A stretch of DNA of 64,000 nucleotides from Acidimicrobiia bacterium (GTDB lineage Bacteria > Actinomycetota > Acidimicrobiia > Spongiisociales > Spongiisociaceae). The DNA is taken from the NCBI GenBank assembly GCA_011523635.1, contig WTGI01000076.1:1-64000 (forward strand). Direction: 5' to 3'. Both the position numbers and the translations under genes were made by a program. Under the pieces are notes generated by a model. That model ran no database searches. It saw only the letters and a program-made list of their open reading frames with translations, and was not told where the DNA came from. Each line of letters opens with the position of its first letter. The stretch's first letter is position 1. This document shows, piece by piece, positions 57,056-64,000 of the stretch.

Positions 57056-58126
57056 ATGCCATCAGCTGTTCCAGCCGTAGGGCTCCATCAGATCACCAAG
57101 CGCTTCGGTGACGTCATCGCCGTGGACAGCGTCGATCTCGAGATCGCCGACGGCGAGTTCTTCGCCCTGCTCGGTCCTTCCGGATGCGGGAAGACCACCA
57201 CGCTCCGCCTGATCGCGGGGCTCGAGTTCCCCACCACGGGCCGCCTCCGGATCTTCGGCGATGAGGTGGGCACCCTGCCCCCCAACCGGCGTCCTGTCAA
57301 TACCGTCTTCCAGAACTACGCCCTCTTCCCCCACATGACCGCCGAGGAGAACGTGGCGTTCGGGTTGCGGATGCGCAAGATATCCAAGGCCGAGATCGAA
57401 CCACGCGTCCGTGACGCCATCGCCCTGGTCCACATGGAGGGGATGGAGCAACGCCGCCCCGACCAGCTTTCGGGCGGCCAGCAGCAAAGGGTGGCGTTGG
57501 CCAGGGCGCTGGTCAACAGTCCCAAGGTACTGCTCCTCGACGAGCCCCTCGGAGCTCTCGACCTCAAGCTGCGCGAAGCCATGCAGCTCGAGCTCAAGGC
57601 TCTCCAGCGCGAGGTGGGGATCACGTTCGTGTTCGTCACCCATGACCAGGGGGAGGCCCTGGCGATGAGCGACCGGATCGGGGTGATGGACGGGGGCCGG
57701 CTTCTCCAGGTCGGCACGCCCGAGGAGATCTATGCCCGGCCCACCAACCGCTTCGTGGCCGACTTCATCGGGCATGCCAACCTGCTGGACGGGATGGTGA
57801 CCGGACCGGATCAGGTCACCCTCACCAACGGCGTCACCATCGCCGCCACCTCGGGCGTCCCACCGGGCGGCCGGGTGGCGGTCAGCCTGCGTCCGGAGCA
57901 GGCCTTCCTGCACCACCGGGACGGGGCGCCCGAGCACCACACCTCCGTGGACGGCCAGGTGGAGCAGGTCACCTACCTGGGTAACGCGCTGATCTACCGG
58001 GTGTCCTTCCAGTGGATGCACATCGACGTCCGGGAGGAGAACCGGCCCGGCGGGGCCTCGCTCGGCGCGGGTGACGAGGTGACCGTGTCCTGGGAGCCAT
58101 CCTCGGTAGCGGTGGTACAGGACTAG
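57056..58126 (+). CDS. spermidine/putrescine-type ABC transporter ATPase (PotA-like)
   Basis: A 356-residue ATPase. Walker A is GPSGCGKTTTLRLIAGLE, the Q-loop is VFQNYALFPHMTAEENVAFG, the signature is LSGGQQQRVALARAL and Walker B is LLLDEPLGALD. A C-terminal TOBE domain (about 280-356) is present. This is the polyamine/opine/iron/thiamine class of importers. It follows the amidase closely and is followed by two permeases and a binding protein in the order A-B-C-D. Specificity is given by the binding protein, not this subunit. Confidence 0.9.
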   Translation: MPSAVPAVGLHQITKRFGDVIAVDSVDLEIADGEFFALLGPSGCGKTTTLRLIAGLEFPTTGRLRIFGDEVGTLPPNRRPVNTVFQNYALFPHMTAEENVAFGLRMRKISKAEIEPRVRDAIALVHMEGMEQRRPDQLSGGQQQRVALARALVNSPKVLLLDEPLGALDLKLREAMQLELKALQREVGITFVFVTHDQGEALAMSDRIGVMDGGRLLQVGTPEEIYARPTNRFVADFIGHANLLDGMVTGPDQVTLTNGVTIAATSGVPPGGRVAVSLRPEQAFLHHRDGAPEHHTSVDGQVEQVTYLGNALIYRVSFQWMHIDVREENRPGGASLGAGDEVTVSWEPSSVAVVQD

Positions 58127-58130
58127 CGGA

Positions 58131-59063
58131 GTGACCCTGACCGCCGCCCCGCCGCCCTCCGGCTCCGGACCGGGAGGCGCCGGCGCGGCGTTGCTGGAGG
58201 CCACTCCCGAGTTCGAGCGGGCGGCTGCGCGAGCCGATTCGAGGCGAGGGTTCCTGCTGTCGCTTCCCGCCTATGTCTACCTCCTATTGTTCTTCGCCGT
58301 CCCGTTCGGGATAGTGGTGGTCTACTCGCTGGCCACCCGCAACACGATCGGGGGGACCGATCTGGCCGGCTGGAACCTCGACTCCTACCGCCGCCTGGCC
58401 GAGCCGATCGTCCGCGACATCCTGGTCCGGTCGCTCTGGATCGCGGTGCTCACCACCCTCATCTGCCTGGTGGTGGCCTATCCCTTCTCCTATTTCATAG
58501 CCACCCGGAAACCCATGATCCGCAACATCCTGCTGGTGTTCGTGATGATCCCGTTCTGGACCAACTTCCTGGTGCGCAACTACGCGTGGCGGGTGATCCT
58601 TGGGTCGGACGGCCCCTTCGCCGCCGTCACCGAGGCGCTCGGCGTTGGACGGCAGGAAATACTCTTCACCCACTCGGCGGTGATCCTGGGGCTGGTGTAC
58701 GGGTACCTGCCCTTCATGGTCCTGCCTCTCTACGCAGCCATCGAGCGGATCGACGGGAGCCTTATCGAAGCCGGCCGGGACCTGTACGCGTCCGGGGCCC
58801 AGACCTTCCGGCGGGTGCTGCTGCCGCTGTCGATGCCCGGGGTGCTGGCCGGTTCGATCCTGGTGTTCGTGCCCAGCCTGGGCGCCTACGTCACCCCCCA
58901 GATCCTGGGAGGCGGCAAGTCCACCATGCTGGGGTCCTACATCGTGGTGCAGTTCCTGACCGCTCGTAACTGGCCACTGGGGGCCTCCCTGTCCTTCGTG
59001 CTGATGACCGTGATGCTGACCGCCACGCTGATCTACTTCCGGGCGGGAGGGCGGAACCTGTGA
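58131..59063 (+). CDS. spermidine/putrescine-type ABC permease (PotB-like)
   Basis: A 310-residue six-helix permease. The N-terminus has a Pro/Gly-rich cytoplasmic tail, then the first helix (SLPAYVYLLLFFAVPFGIVVVYSL). The coupling loop LIEAGRDLYASGAQTFRRVLLPLSMPGVLAGSI (in part) is the EAA motif. The GTG at 58131 lies four bases after potA. It pairs with the following PotC-like subunit. Confidence 0.9.
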   Translation: MTLTAAPPPSGSGPGGAGAALLEATPEFERAAARADSRRGFLLSLPAYVYLLLFFAVPFGIVVVYSLATRNTIGGTDLAGWNLDSYRRLAEPIVRDILVRSLWIAVLTTLICLVVAYPFSYFIATRKPMIRNILLVFVMIPFWTNFLVRNYAWRVILGSDGPFAAVTEALGVGRQEILFTHSAVILGLVYGYLPFMVLPLYAAIERIDGSLIEAGRDLYASGAQTFRRVLLPLSMPGVLAGSILVFVPSLGAYVTPQILGGGKSTMLGSYIVVQFLTARNWPLGASLSFVLMTVMLTATLIYFRAGGRNL

Positions 59064-59079
59064 ACCGGCGGGAGCGGCC

Positions 59080-59961
59080 ATGATCGGCCGGACGGCCCGG
59101 CCCGGCAGCGTGACCGCGTGGGCATTGTCGGGAACGGCCTGGCTGGTCTATGCCTTCTTCTACGCCCCGATCGTCCTGCTGGTGCTGTTCTCGTTCAGCG
59201 ACGACCGCAACGTCGGGCGGTGGGGCGGCTTCACCCTGTCCTGGTACGAGCAGTTCATCGACCATTCCCAGCTCCAGAACAGCCTGTGGGTGTCCATCCG
59301 GGTGGCCCTGCTGTCCACCGTGATCTCGGTGGTGCTGGGGACGCTGGCCGCGCTGGCTCTCGAGCGGTTCCGGTTCCGAGGGCAGCGGGTGTTCGACGCC
59401 CTCCTCTACCTGCCGATCATCATCCCCGACGTCACGATGGCGGTGATGATGCTGCTGTTCTTCTCCGAAGGCATCCGCATCGCCGAGCTGCTGTTCGGGT
59501 TCGACCTCACCAAGGGATTCACCACCATCACCATCAGCCACATCGCCTTCAACATCAGCTTCGTGTCGGTGGTGGTGCGAGCCCGGCTGTCGGGCATGAA
59601 CGAGCAGCTGGAGGAAGCAGCCCTGGACCTCTACGCCAACCGGTGGCGCAGCTTCCGCTACGTCACCCTGCCGCAGATCGCGCCCGGCATTGCCGGCGGC
59701 GCGCTTCTCGCCCTCACTCTGTCGCTCGACGATGTGGTGGTCACCCAGTTCGCCTCGGGCCCGGGTTCCACCACCTTGCCCGTGTTCGTATTCGGCATGA
59801 TCCGTCGCGGCGTCACCCCGCTCATCAACGCCGTCTCGGTCATCATGCTCGCGGCGTCGATCGTACTGGTGATCCTGTCGCTTGCCACCCAACGCCTGCG
59901 GACCGGAGAGACGGGCCGGAGCCTGGGAGCGCGCCTGCGAGGGCGATCCGACCCGCACTAG
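59080..59961 (+). CDS. spermidine/putrescine-type ABC permease (PotC-like)
   Basis: A 293-residue six-helix permease with the PotC hallmarks FYAPIVLLVLFSFSDDRN, the FTLSWYEQF segment and the EAA loop EEAALDLYANRWRSFRYVTLPQIAPGI (in part). The ATG at 59080 has GGAG upstream and lies 16 bases after the PotB-like gene. It completes the membrane channel of the importer. Confidence 0.92.
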   Translation: MIGRTARPGSVTAWALSGTAWLVYAFFYAPIVLLVLFSFSDDRNVGRWGGFTLSWYEQFIDHSQLQNSLWVSIRVALLSTVISVVLGTLAALALERFRFRGQRVFDALLYLPIIIPDVTMAVMMLLFFSEGIRIAELLFGFDLTKGFTTITISHIAFNISFVSVVVRARLSGMNEQLEEAALDLYANRWRSFRYVTLPQIAPGIAGGALLALTLSLDDVVVTQFASGPGSTTLPVFVFGMIRRGVTPLINAVSVIMLAASIVLVILSLATQRLRTGETGRSLGARLRGRSDPH

Positions 59962-60103
59962 AGGTGCGGAAACACGTTCCGGGCCACCTTGCCCCCGGAG
60001 CGCCGATACAATCTGCCCGAGCCGTCTCTACGCGGCCGCCATTCGGAAGGCGAGCCGGGGGCGGGCTTCGAAGTCACGAGCGAGAACACAGAAAGAGGTT
60101 GCA

Positions 60104-61213
60104 ATGAGACCTATCCCGATGCGTCGCGTGCTCGCGGTGCTGGTGGCCATGACGCTCCTGGCGGCCGCCTGCGCGGAAGACGGCGGAGAATCCGCTGCCG
60201 CCGCGGATTGCGAAGTGGGCCAGACGGATGGTGACCTGAACCTGTACAACTGGGCCGAGTACATCGATCCGGACCTGGTGGACGCCTTCGCGGCCGAGCA
60301 CGGCGTCGCGATGACCGTGGATGTCTACGACTCCAACGAGGCCATGCAGCCGATCATCTCCGCGGGCAACTCGGGATACGACCTGATCGTTCCCTCCGAC
60401 TACATGGTCGCCATCCTGATCGCCGGCGAGGACATCCAGCCTCTCAACAAGGACGCCATACCCAATATCGCCAACATCTCGCCGGACTTCAGCGATCTGG
60501 TGTACGACCCCGCCGGCGACTACTCGGTGCCATACCAGTGGGGAACCACGGGTCTGGCGGTCGACACCGCGGTGGTTGGAACCGACTTCCCGAGGTCCTG
60601 GTCGATCGTCTTCGACCCGAGCTTCGCGGATCAGTACGCAGGCCGGATCTCGCTGCTGAACGACCCGCGGGAGACCCTGGGCGCGGCGCTGAAGTACCTC
60701 GGATACTCGCTCAACACCACCGACACCGGTGAGCTGGAGGAGGCCAAGCAGCTGGTCGCCGAGGCACGGGGCCGGGTGGCGGCCTTCGACACGGATCAGG
60801 CCGACGAGCTGCTCACGACCGGCGAGACGGCGATAGCCCACGGCTACTCGGGTGACATGTTCACGCAGTTCCTGGAGACCGATGACCCGTCCCGATACGT
60901 GTACTTCGTGCCGGAGGAGGGCGGGACGCGTTGGATCGACAACATGGCGATCCCGCATGACGCCCCCAACCCCTGCACGGCCCACACCTTCATCAACTGG
61001 ATTCTCGATGCAGAGAACGGCGCGGCCCTGTCCAACTACAACTACTACTCCACCCCCAACGCGGCGGCCCTTGACGGCCTGGAGCAGGAGTTGCTGGACT
61101 TCGTGGCCGACCCCGCGGTGATCCCGGGCGGGGTGGGTTCGCTGGAGGAGATCCAGGACACCGGCGACTTCGAGATCAACTACACCGACGCATTCATCGA
61201 GGCGGTGGGCTAG
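60104..61213 (+). CDS. spermidine/putrescine-type ABC substrate-binding lipoprotein (PotD-like)
   Basis: A 369-residue binding lipoprotein. The signal ends TLLAAAC near residue 23. The mature protein starts with the PotD-type LNLYNWAEYIDPDLVDAF and has SGYDLIVPSDYMV, YSVPYQWGTTGLAVD and AHTFINWILDAENGA. The fold binds polyamines in PotD/PotF, but relatives bind other cationic or zwitterionic compounds. The ATG at 60104 follows AAAGAGG. A gap of 142 bases after potC could hold a separate promoter or an attenuator. Its stop overlaps the convergent queG stop in CTAG. Confidence 0.9.
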   Translation: MRPIPMRRVLAVLVAMTLLAAACAEDGGESAAAADCEVGQTDGDLNLYNWAEYIDPDLVDAFAAEHGVAMTVDVYDSNEAMQPIISAGNSGYDLIVPSDYMVAILIAGEDIQPLNKDAIPNIANISPDFSDLVYDPAGDYSVPYQWGTTGLAVDTAVVGTDFPRSWSIVFDPSFADQYAGRISLLNDPRETLGAALKYLGYSLNTTDTGELEEAKQLVAEARGRVAAFDTDQADELLTTGETAIAHGYSGDMFTQFLETDDPSRYVYFVPEEGGTRWIDNMAIPHDAPNPCTAHTFINWILDAENGAALSNYNYYSTPNAAALDGLEQELLDFVADPAVIPGGVGSLEEIQDTGDFEINYTDAFIEAVG

Positions 61214-62343
61214 GGCGCGGTCGCGACGGGTTCACGAACGGGTACCCGGCGGTCAAGTTCGTCCCGGACCAGCGGGTCCTCACGGCCCCGTAGAGCGGCA
61301 AGGCCCAACCCGAGGCGTCGGGCGCACCAGACGGCGTGGGCGCGCACCAGCGGGTCGGGATGGGCCAGGGCCTGGCTGACCGCGGAACGGACCCGGGGCT
61401 GGGATGGATCCCCGACATTGCCCAGCGCCACCAGGGCGTTGCGCCGCAGGTAACGGGGCTGGCGCCGCGGGATGTACCAGCGTCCGAAGCGGGCCATGAG
61501 GTCCTCGTCGGAGGCGTCGAGCAGATCGACCAGGGATACCCAGGCCTCGTTGGGTCTCTTTGCCCCCGGGCTGTCGAGGCGGACGCGGACCCGGTTGGGA
61601 GGGCACACCTCGGCGCAATCGTCGCAGCCGTAGATCCGATCCCCCAGCGCTACCCGGAACTCGGGACGGAACACCCCGGACTCCTGGACCAGCCAGGCCA
61701 GGCAGCGGCGGGCGTCGACCACCCCGGGAGCGACTATGGCGCCGGTGGGACATCCGTCGAGGCACTGGCGGCACGTCCCGCAGCCGTCAGCCATCGGCGC
61801 CGGATCGGTGTCGCACAGAGGGGCGTCGGTCACCACCGCGCCCAGCACCACCAGGCTCCCGGCTCCCGGCACGAGGATGTTGGAGCTCTTCCCCCACCAG
61901 CCGATGGCGGCCCGGTAGGCGGCCGCCCGGTCGACCAGGCCGTTCTCGTCGGCCACCACCACCGCCCGGTGGCCCACGGCGCGGAGCGCCTCCGCCACGT
62001 GATCGAGAGCTGACCGGAGAGCCGCGTAGTGATCCTCCCTGGCGTAGGCCGCCACCCGTCCGTAGGGGAGACCGTCGTCCGGGTGGTCCGGCTCGCCGCG
62101 CCAGAAGTCGAGGGCGCCCACCACCAGGGAGGCGGCGCCCGGCAGGATGCGCGACGGATCGGTAGAGCGCTCCGGATTGCGGTAGGTGAACTGCATCCCG
62201 CCATGCAGGCCGTCCTCCTTGCGCTCCCGCAGGGTTTCGGCCATTTCCGTGAAGGGCTCCGCCCGGCATACTCCCACCGCAGCCAGCCCGGCCCGCCGGC
62301 CGATGTCGAGAATTGCGTCCACCTGGATTTGCGAAGCAGCCAT
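61210..62343 (-). CDS. queG: epoxyqueuosine reductase-like protein
   Basis: A 377-residue QueG-family protein. QueG is a cobalamin-dependent reductase that carries out the last step of queuosine formation in tRNA anticodons. Visible are the active-site region (ENGLVDRAAAYRAAIGWWGKSS), two 4Fe-4S motifs (CGTCRQCLDGCPTGAI and CDDCAEVCPPNR) and a C-terminal HEAT-like region (RRNALVALGNVGDPSQP). Its B12 requirement fits the cobalamin genes of the window. The ATG at 62343 is used; a GTG four codons upstream is possible. No other queuosine gene is seen here. Confidence 0.86.
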   Translation of the reverse strand: MAASQIQVDAILDIGRRAGLAAVGVCRAEPFTEMAETLRERKEDGLHGGMQFTYRNPERSTDPSRILPGAASLVVGALDFWRGEPDHPDDGLPYGRVAAYAREDHYAALRSALDHVAEALRAVGHRAVVVADENGLVDRAAAYRAAIGWWGKSSNILVPGAGSLVVLGAVVTDAPLCDTDPAPMADGCGTCRQCLDGCPTGAIVAPGVVDARRCLAWLVQESGVFRPEFRVALGDRIYGCDDCAEVCPPNRVRVRLDSPGAKRPNEAWVSLVDLLDASDEDLMARFGRWYIPRRQPRYLRRNALVALGNVGDPSQPRVRSAVSQALAHPDPLVRAHAVWCARRLGLGLAALRGREDPLVRDELDRRVPVREPVATAP

Positions 62344-62716
62344 CGGCGACTTCACCCGGTGGCAGGATCTGGCTCAGCAATCCCCGCCGGAGGGAAGTGC
62401 GGATGGGGGTTCGGAGCGCTTCCACTCATGTCACACTGTCCGGGTGATCGGGGGCGCGGCCCATCCCCGAACAAGTGGTCCGGTAACGTCGTCATGACGT
62501 ACTGCTCTCCATCGAGGATCAGATTCCCCTGTTCCAAGAGTCAAGACAATAACCCGAGCGACGGGCGCCCGTCCGGTTCCCTGGGGTGATGACTCGTCAG
62601 CTTCAGCGCCGGAGCAGCCTGTGGGCGAGGCACCCAAGGCGGGTGGAACGTCGCGTGTAGGGGTAGTCCTCCGGACGCAGCACTGTTACCATCTAACCAA
62701 TGTTGCGGTAAACGGC
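62344..62716. other. intergenic region without recognisable gene
   Basis: These 373 bases separate queG from the tRNA on the same strand. Small frames exist on both strands but none has a ribosome site, domain or conserved character. The queG promoter and the 3' trailer of the tRNA must lie here. Confidence 0.4.
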
Positions 62717-62808
62717 GGCGGGCAGCGGAGTCGAACCGCAACCAGGAGGCACTCCTCCCGGCTCCGAGTTTCTCAGGCCCGGTCCTGTACCCACAGGCAA
62801 TACCCGCC
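62717..62808 (-). tRNA. type II tRNA with 8/4 acceptor/T-stem (allo-tRNA-like), probable anticodon GAG
   Basis: Reading the minus strand, a 92-nt cloverleaf forms. The acceptor is GGCGGGTA with TGCCCGCC (8 bp). The D arm is CCTGT-GGGT-ACAGG with a 4-base loop. The anticodon arm spans 62782-62764 with loop CTGAGAA, so the anticodon is GAG at 62774-62772; the closing pair is a C-A mismatch. The variable arm CCGGGAGG/CCTCCTGG (62761-62742) has 8 bp including one G-U. The T arm is GCGG-TTCGACT-CCGC (4 bp). The next base gives discriminator G; CCA is not encoded (CCG). A 7/5 reading leaves a T-T mismatch and no U8. A strict 5-bp anticodon stem would leave a 9-base loop holding UGA. The long variable arm and G73 suggest charging by seryl-tRNA synthetase. 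Confidence 0.72.
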
Positions 62809-62819
62809 AGTTCGGGGTG

Positions 62820-62849
62820 ACGGGCGACGGCCATCCGGCTGTCGCCCGT
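62820..62849. terminator. strong hairpin between DAO gene and tRNA
   Basis: ACGGGCGAC (62820-62828) pairs perfectly with GTCGCCCGT (62841-62849), and an inner GCC/GGC pair tightens the loop. It lies 11 bases upstream of the tRNA 5' end and 69 bases after the flavoprotein stop. No U-tract follows on the minus strand; on the plus strand TTCTCCT follows. It could end the flavoprotein transcript or mark the tRNA precursor for processing. Confidence 0.5.
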
Positions 62850-62918
62850 TCTCCTATGGGGCATCGTTACGCTCGTGGGTGCGACTGACAACCCCCTCGG
62901 TGGAGGGGATCACCGGCC

Positions 62919-64000
62919 TCAGCGGCGGAGCAGTCCGTAGGCCAGGCGGCCGAGGCGGGAGGAGCGTCCGGTGCCGAACTCGAAGCGGTCGGCCCAGCCC
63001 ATCACGGTCCGGGTGCCCCGGATTCCCAGCCAGCGCAGGGGCTCGGGCTCCCAGGGACGCGACTCGATCCCGACCCAGGCGAGCTCGGCCAGTTCGGAAT
63101 CGGTGCCGGTGATCAGATCGGCCAGGGTGCGGCCGGCCAGGTTGGAAGGCGCCACCCCCTCACCGACGTAGCCGCCGGCCGCACCCAATCCGGTCCGGGA
63201 GTCGTAGCGCACCGCCGGGACCCAGTTGCGGGGCGCCGCCAGCACGCCGCCCCATTCGTGGGTGATGGCCGCATCGCCGAGCGCCGGGAAGATCTCCACC
63301 AACACCCGCCGGATGAGGTCGTGGGAGCGCCGGTCCCGCTCCGTGGCCGGATCGATCCGGGAGCCGTACAGGTAAGGGACCGCCCTCCCCCCGAAGGCGA
63401 TCCGGTTGTCGGCGGTCCGCTGCCCGTAGATGACCGCGTAGCGATCGTCGGCGAACGTAGGCCGCGTATCGAGCCCGATCTGGGCAAGGGTCGAGGCGTC
63501 CAGCGGCTCGGTGGCGATCATCAGCGAGTAGAGCGGCACCAGGGTCCGTCGCTCTCCGGCAAGGTCGCGGGTGTAAGCCTCGGTGGCCCGGATCACCACC
63601 GGAGCGCTGACCCGTCCGCCGGTGGTGGCGACCGATCCGTCCCGGATCGCGGTGGCGGCGGTCTGCTCGACGATCCCGACCCCGCGCCGCTCCACCACGT
63701 CGGCCAAACCCCTTACCAGCCGGGCCGGATCGAGCGCCGCGCAGGGCGCGTAGAAGATGCCACCGTGGAGGTCGGTGGGCCGGGCGAAGCGCCGCACCTC
63801 CTCCGGCTCCAGCAGGCGGATGATGTCCGCGCCGATGCCTCCGGCGCGGTTGCTCTCGATCTCGGCCGCCTGGCGCCCTGCCTGGGCGCGGCTGCGGGCG
63901 AACCGGATCACGCCGCCCTTGGCGAACCCGCACTCGATGGCCTCGGTTGCCGCCACCCGCCCGATCTCGTCGACCGAGCCGTGCACGTACTCCATGAGGC
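62919..64000 (-). CDS. FAD-dependent oxidoreductase (DAO family), 5' end beyond window
   Basis: At least 358 codons are present and the frame is open to the window edge. The N-terminal FAD-binding GxGxxG region is missing because it lies outside. What remains is typical of the DAO/gamma-glutamylputrescine oxidoreductase group: AIECGFAKGGVIRFARSRAQ, the GGIFYAPCAALDPARLVRGLA segment, VVIRATEAYTRDLAG and a C-terminal GGYVGEGVAPSNLAGRTLADLI. Such enzymes oxidise amines or amino acids. Near a PotABCD-type importer and xsc, it might oxidise a polyamine derivative or an aminosulfonate (taurine dehydrogenase also has a DAO-type subunit). Neither can be chosen from sequence. Confidence 0.82.
   Translation of the reverse strand, partial: LMEYVHGSVDEIGRVAATEAIECGFAKGGVIRFARSRAQAGRQAAEIESNRAGGIGADIIRLLEPEEVRRFARPTDLHGGIFYAPCAALDPARLVRGLADVVERRGVGIVEQTAATAIRDGSVATTGGRVSAPVVIRATEAYTRDLAGERRTLVPLYSLMIATEPLDASTLAQIGLDTRPTFADDRYAVIYGQRTADNRIAFGGRAVPYLYGSRIDPATERDRRSHDLIRRVLVEIFPALGDAAITHEWGGVLAAPRNWVPAVRYDSRTGLGAAGGYVGEGVAPSNLAGRTLADLITGTDSELAELAWVGIESRPWEPEPLRWLGIRGTRTVMGWADRFEFGTGRSSRLGRLAYGLLRR

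Follow-up and report, generated by a model that had tools for sequence, protein, structure and literature searches.

A serine-type 8/4 allo-tRNA gene with a conserved 5' hairpin at dispersed loci in a genus of Acidimicrobiia

An 8/4 cloverleaf compared with known tRNA classes

The identity elements recognized by SerRS are a long variable arm and G73, and selC* tRNA-Cys carries the cysteine identity base U73 in an 8/4-type cloverleaf. Serine-type 8/4 allo-tRNAs (Mukai et al., 2017, as relayed in the review PMC7609411) have, in that relayed account, an 8-bp acceptor stem, a 4-bp T stem, a long variable arm, G73 with serine elements and a non-serine anticodon, all in common with the gene described here; polycistronic copies and pseudogenes are also reported. 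In E. coli, CUC and UUA codons received serine from two allo-tRNAs of Silvibacterium bohemicum, one 8/4 and one 9/3 (PMC7609411); the GAG anticodon of the present gene would read CUC, the codon tested with one of them. PMC7609411 further reports a transposon-related frame overlapped by an allo-tRNA pseudogene, along with a proposed link to transposable elements, and names Clostridia, Proteobacteria and Acidobacteria as host groups. The present host lies outside those groups: it is an Acidimicrobiia MAG (3.15 Mb, 91 contigs, ~97% complete) from a bacterial group that is apparently sponge-associated, as read off the isolate names of related Acidimicrobiia MAG records. A fixed 5' hairpin with an upstream box, dispersed loci and empty sites in sister species also distinguish it from the allo-tRNAs of the review; in its lineage, in the conservation of hairpin and box and in its empty sites the gene goes further than the account in PMC7609411.

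In the window (the whole 64-kb stretch of DNA analysed), the sole tRNA called by ARAGORN is a tRNA-Leu(gag) at 62714–62808 on the minus strand. The call falls where the first-pass annotation had placed a candidate allo-tRNA, at 62717–62808; location and minus strand stand, but the mature gene starts at 62716, since a start at 62717 leaves out G73. The Rfam tRNA-Sec model proposed there as a check (RF01852) does match at 62717–62808 (minus strand, E = 3.7e-5), although its 38.6 bits fall under the gathering score of 47. The gene is absent from the matches of the general tRNA model RF00005, and scores 108 bits with a covariance model of the genus family built here. The minus strand folds to a full cloverleaf of -50.5 kcal/mol (z = -3.2), an energy equalled by none of 200 shuffles, with the following parts:

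62716–62808, minus strand: allo-tRNA gene, 93 nt with G73, anticodon GAG, CCA not encoded (ARAGORN, Rfam tRNA-Sec, own covariance model)
62801–62808, minus strand: 8-bp acceptor stem, 5' strand GGCGGGUA, pairing with 62717–62724
62784–62797, minus strand: D arm, 5-bp stem CCUGU/ACAGG and 4-base loop GGGU, GG conserved
62764–62782, minus strand: anticodon arm, 6-bp stem with closing pair C-A, 7-base loop CUGAGAA
62772–62774, minus strand: anticodon GAG (sequence and genus alignment)
62740–62763, minus strand: long variable arm, 9–10 bp (fold)
62725–62739, minus strand: T arm, 4-bp stem GCGG/CCGC and loop UUCGACU
62717–62724, minus strand: 8-bp acceptor stem, 3' strand UGCCCGCC (fold and alignment)
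62716, minus strand: discriminator G73, serine/Sec type (sequence; all host tRNA-Leu have A73)

Copies were sought by DNA and covariance searches in ten genomes of the genus (G000–G009, the host being G000). Seven carry allo-tRNA copies and three have none; hairpin and allo-tRNA occur together at four loci, termed A (the window site), B, C and E. In the alignment of these copies helix pairing holds in 97% of cells, against 31–51% for slid helices, and two stems covary: the acceptor pair C3-G becomes U-A in the locus C copies, and a C-G pair of the T stem becomes U-A. The 8-bp acceptor and 4-bp T stem of the first-pass annotation are therefore upheld by fold, alignment and compensatory changes, and so are its 4-base D loop, which the fold sets on a 5-bp stem, and its serine-type G73. 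It had also given the variable arm 8 bp; the arm is indeed long, but the window copy folds with 9–10 pairs. The anticodon GAG in a 7-base loop agrees with the ARAGORN call and with the loop-closing pair, which is C-A in the window copy and C-G in the locus B paralogues of G003 and G005; given these two C-G pairs, a 9-base loop containing UGA, once suggested as an alternative, is unlikely. The C-A pair may weaken decoding. Among the seven intact genus copies aligned, U33, A35 and A37 are invariant while positions 34, 36 and 38 vary, and the D-loop GG and T-loop TTCGA are invariant throughout the genus family. The window feature is confirmed as a genuine, evolutionarily conserved tRNA gene, far beyond chance, and is by structure a serine-type 8/4 allo-tRNA, with a 12-bp branch (8 + 4), a long variable arm with G73, and a non-serine anticodon whose ordinary isoacceptor is encoded elsewhere.

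The ordinary tRNA set of the host is complete, with five tRNA-Leu genes (one of them a 7/5 GAG gene), four tRNA-Ser genes and the others. According to the first-pass annotation, the missense idea would fall if no standard tRNA-Leu(GAG) existed and this gene served as one; the standard gene is present (G000:C37:15835–15918), the window gene does not serve in its place, and a role as sole CUC decoder is rejected. The two genes have the anticodon and a class II variable arm in common (53–55 identical positions over 96–106 columns), but the leucine gene is a separate, normal one with A73 and a 7/5 cloverleaf. The ARAGORN label would fit an ordinary tRNA-Leu(GAG) or its pseudogene, a reading already contradicted by G73 in place of A73, the 8/4 cloverleaf, the normal gene and the compensatory changes, and one to which we attach hardly any weight. 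With the host tRNA-Ser genes the window gene shares G73, the long variable arm and, in three of the four, G1-C72 and G2-C71 (59–64 identical positions over ~100 aligned columns); they differ from it in their 7/5 acceptor and T stems, ordinary large D loop and serine anticodons. G73 also excludes a selC* tRNA-Cys.

A true tRNA-Sec is found in all ten genus genomes at ~77 bits each, the host's lying at G000:C75:11198–11288 with an anticodon read as UCA. Like bacterial tRNA-Sec (RF01852), the window gene has an acceptor of 8 bp, a long variable arm and G73, and its D arm with a loop of 4 bases is Sec-like, but it has a 4-bp T stem and so an 8/4 rather than an 8/5 (13-bp) branch, reads GAG and not UCA, and scores below the Rfam cut-off beside a separate true tRNA-Sec; membership of that class is excluded. 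It might instead be a second selenocysteine tRNA acting on a sense codon, its serine converted by SelA, as the 5-bp, 4-base-loop D arm, the best Rfam match and the presence of a true tRNA-Sec in the host could suggest; the 12-bp acceptor and T helix and the low score speak against this, selenocysteine would do harm at leucine codons as common as these, and we consider the idea scarcely credible. The window gene is neither the cell's leucine tRNA nor its selenocysteine tRNA. One SerRS was detected in nine of the ten genus genomes and none was found in the tenth, which is 84% complete; a second, dedicated SerRS was not found in the genus genomes. Because the ordinary tRNA set, tRNA-Sec and SerRS are complete in the host, the allo-tRNA is an extra gene.

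The 5' hairpin and upstream box

The first-pass annotation contained neither the 13-bp hairpin 5' of the tRNA nor the paralogous loci and empty sites. The surroundings of the gene are as follows:

62919–63995, minus strand: FAD-dependent oxidoreductase (DAO), upstream neighbour (Pfam PF01266, E = 3e-39); the gene extends past the listed ORF
62874–62885, minus strand: shared upstream box GTCGCACCCACG, found before loci A, B and C
62817–62852, minus strand: conserved 5' hairpin, core stem 62820–62849 of 13 positions with one mismatch and a loop of 4, ~11 nt 5' of the tRNA
62600–62652, minus strand: 53-bp, 79% copy of the DAO gene end (62916–62968), a tandem-duplication trace in the inserted segment
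61210–62355, minus strand: QueG-like epoxyqueuosine reductase, downstream neighbour (Pfam Fer4_16, weak QueG_DUF1730), directly after DAO in element-free genomes

The hairpin is the longest short-loop stem within the non-coding DNA of the window, and a hairpin precedes every genus copy by ~11 nt at all four loci. Both sides of a pair have changed at 6 of 16 positions, where shuffles expect 3.6 and 13 of 500 shuffles reach six, and 76% of alignment cells pair against 30–52% in slid versions; the aligned copies indicate that pairing is maintained through compensatory changes. At locus A it is the best-conserved segment, with a mean between-species identity of 97.1%, followed by the tRNA (92.9%), the leader (87.5%) and the DAO coding end (83.9%); 3' of the tRNA identity is 78% at first and ~50% past +160. 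Between G000 and G005, whose three neighbouring genes are 92.7% identical, the unit region shows no difference over 121 bases where simple arithmetic from the neighbouring-gene rate expects ~9. Hairpin and tRNA thus appear to be under purifying selection.

Homology among loci A, B and C is limited to the region from ~-39/-47 to +94/+112 and a separate ~21-nt box at -105 to -67, so that the conserved order is upstream box, 5' hairpin and allo-tRNA, and the paralogues align nowhere else. Across the whole window the core sequence GTCGCACCCACG of the box is matched perfectly once. When up to one mismatch is allowed, the genome holds four instances of the extended box, of which two belong to allo-tRNA loci; the window copy departs from the extended pattern at two positions. 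The box is probably a promoter or regulator site. No sigma-70-type promoter was found.

Several readings of the hairpin were set aside. As a terminator of the upstream gene it is rejected generally: the upstream neighbour at locus C is divergent, no T-run follows the hairpin, and the hairpin keeps its sequence and its distance from the tRNA across loci. A riboswitch-like leader for a downstream gene is likewise rejected generally, loci B and E having no co-directional downstream gene. Nor, as far as long perfect stems go, is it common to all host tRNA genes: before the ordinary ones perfect stems measure 3–7 bp; upstream perfect stems of at least 9 bp occur at locus A in G000, at loci C and E, and in a relative in G049, and some locus A and B copies have short ones. 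The folding energy of the 60 upstream bases alone does not separate allo-tRNAs from ordinary tRNA genes.

That relative came from a wider search of ~400 genomes of the class and ~400 of the phylum, in which the best 10 or 31 candidates per genome were scored, so that weak relatives were possibly missed. Among the scored candidates it is the only one from the same order (G049:C57:69492–69576, minus strand), a weak 38-bit match in another family: an 8/4 tRNA-like gene with a poor anticodon arm and a very strong hairpin directly upstream. One family in another class of the phylum yielded, again among scored candidates, two 8/4 allo-tRNA-like genes (L116 1501–1592 and L117 1501–1589) with no obvious hairpin and, as read from the sequence, apparently without U33. 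A second tandem copy, truncated at its 5' end, lies at L117 1813–1895. Three other matches were set aside, L118 as a tRNA-Sec and L119 and L120 as ordinary tRNAs.

These features bear on whether the RNA decodes at all. Hairpin and tRNA-like body might form one structured RNA whose anticodon plays no part on the ribosome; it could, for example, sense charged tRNA, donate serine to a non-ribosomal reaction or bind a protein. Such a role is a serious rival, though on balance an unlikely one. The hairpin is conserved above the tRNA with its pairing kept, anticodon positions 34 and 36 vary where the stems hardly do, the distant 8/4 relatives apparently lack U33, and the units at B and E resemble free RNA genes, as neither is followed by a co-directional gene. 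Yet U33, A35 and A37 never vary in the genus family, which is what a decoding loop would show, the tertiary-contact positions of the D and T loops are kept, and known allo-tRNAs decode in E. coli (PMC7609411). We regard with somewhat greater doubt the proposal that hairpin and tRNA-like body make up a novel type of small-RNA gene, one that has multiplied from site to site in the genus and acts outside ordinary decoding.

Gain, loss and decay of the loci

At locus A the anticodon is GAG in G000, G005 and the decaying copy of G008, and CAG in G001, G006, G007 and the altered copy of G003. Locus B, which follows a gene that we take to encode a MocR-type regulator, has CAC in G001, G003 and G005 and a truncated copy in G000. 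Locus C (GAG; G000 and G005) lies between a presumed MFS transporter gene and a lipoprotein-like gene, and locus E is a diverged copy in G001 only, its anticodon read as CAG. The anticodon thus differs between orthologues at locus A as well as between paralogues, while the tRNA body stays.

Occupied and empty sites in relatives are clear for loci A and C, and for B in G006. In G002, G004 and G009 the DAO stop adjoins the queG start, whereas in the other seven genomes several hundred bases including the unit lie between the two genes. Locus C is empty in G001, G003, G006 and G008; locus B is absent from G006, with both flanks kept. In species with an occupied site the queG N-terminus differs (window 62300–62355, minus strand), and the insertion sits at the old queG start. 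The queG match of G005 (L137, G005:C19:37414–38544) contains one in-frame TAG, which may be a sequencing error or mark a disrupted gene. Convergent with queG in the window is a plus-strand transporter operon (57056–61213; an ATPase, two permeases and a solute-binding protein) resembling a polyamine uptake system, its gene names assigned by eye except for the Pfam-matched binding protein.

On a tree of three flanking genes, locus A reads as gained ahead of the seven-species clade, B as the next gain, and C (in G000 and G005) and E (in G001) as later ones; B reads as lost in G006 and G007, and A as decaying in G008 and G003. Degenerate tandem copies of the hairpin and the allo-tRNA 5' half were seen ~300 bases 3' of the gene at locus A (L111 ~1501–1576 and L108 ~1501–1576, from copies G005:C19:37122 and G007:C70:4321).

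Given this history, the box, hairpin and tRNA could be a selfish or hitch-hiking unit that spreads, mostly decays and brings its host no steady benefit. The gains at A, B, C and E and the loss or decay in G008, G003, G006 and G007 are in keeping with it, as are the tandem half copies and the published transposon-overlapping pseudogene with its proposed transposable-element link (PMC7609411). Purifying selection on hairpin and tRNA argues the other way; inspection by eye showed no sign of a transposase, of terminal repeats or of a clear target-site duplication, and phages, plasmids and viral contigs held no match to the unit. We rate it as quite improbable.

Possible function and meaning

The reading that we favour, tentatively and at a little less than even confidence, is that of an accessory missense tRNA, charged with serine and reading CUC/CUU at a low or conditional level. 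Transcription of this stand-alone RNA gene would begin at or near the strong hairpin and run on into the 8/4 allo-tRNA, which would be released by RNase P and receive its CCA. Serine charging is plausible from G73, the long variable arm and G1-C72/G2-C71; the host SerRS could recognize the first two together with the 12-bp acceptor and T helix. The charged allo-tRNA would then compete with the normal tRNA-Leu(GAG), serine entering at CUC/CUU leucine codons, and its level or stability would probably be set by the hairpin and upstream box.

Missense decoding by an accessory tRNA is supported by the cloverleaf and its covariation, the invariant U33 and A37, the invariant D-loop GG and T-loop TTCGA, selection on the unit, the full tRNA set, the single SerRS and the precedent of the Silvibacterium allo-tRNAs. 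It is weakened because the anticodon drifts (GAG/CAG at one locus, CAC at a sister locus), copies decay and the target codons are very frequent: in the window CUC, CUG and GUG rank with the most used codons, at 34.5, 48.6 and 44.7 per 1000, so that an efficient missense tRNA should be harmful. As strong missense decoding should be costly, either low or conditional expression or a non-decoding role must hold. Also counted against it are the decayed copies in G008 and G003, the truncated locus B of G000, the three genus genomes that have no copy, the C-A pair at the anticodon loop and the failure to find a sigma-70-type promoter.

Missense decoding, if real, would mean that leucine-to-serine ambiguity is tolerated or used by these bacteria; if instead the hairpin and tRNA act as one RNA, some allo-tRNAs would be modules of such an RNA and not suppressor tRNAs. 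For the role of allo-tRNAs in their native hosts this genus offers a natural experiment: each copy is present in some sister species and missing from others, orthologues differ in anticodon, some copies have decayed, and the 5' hairpin is conserved.
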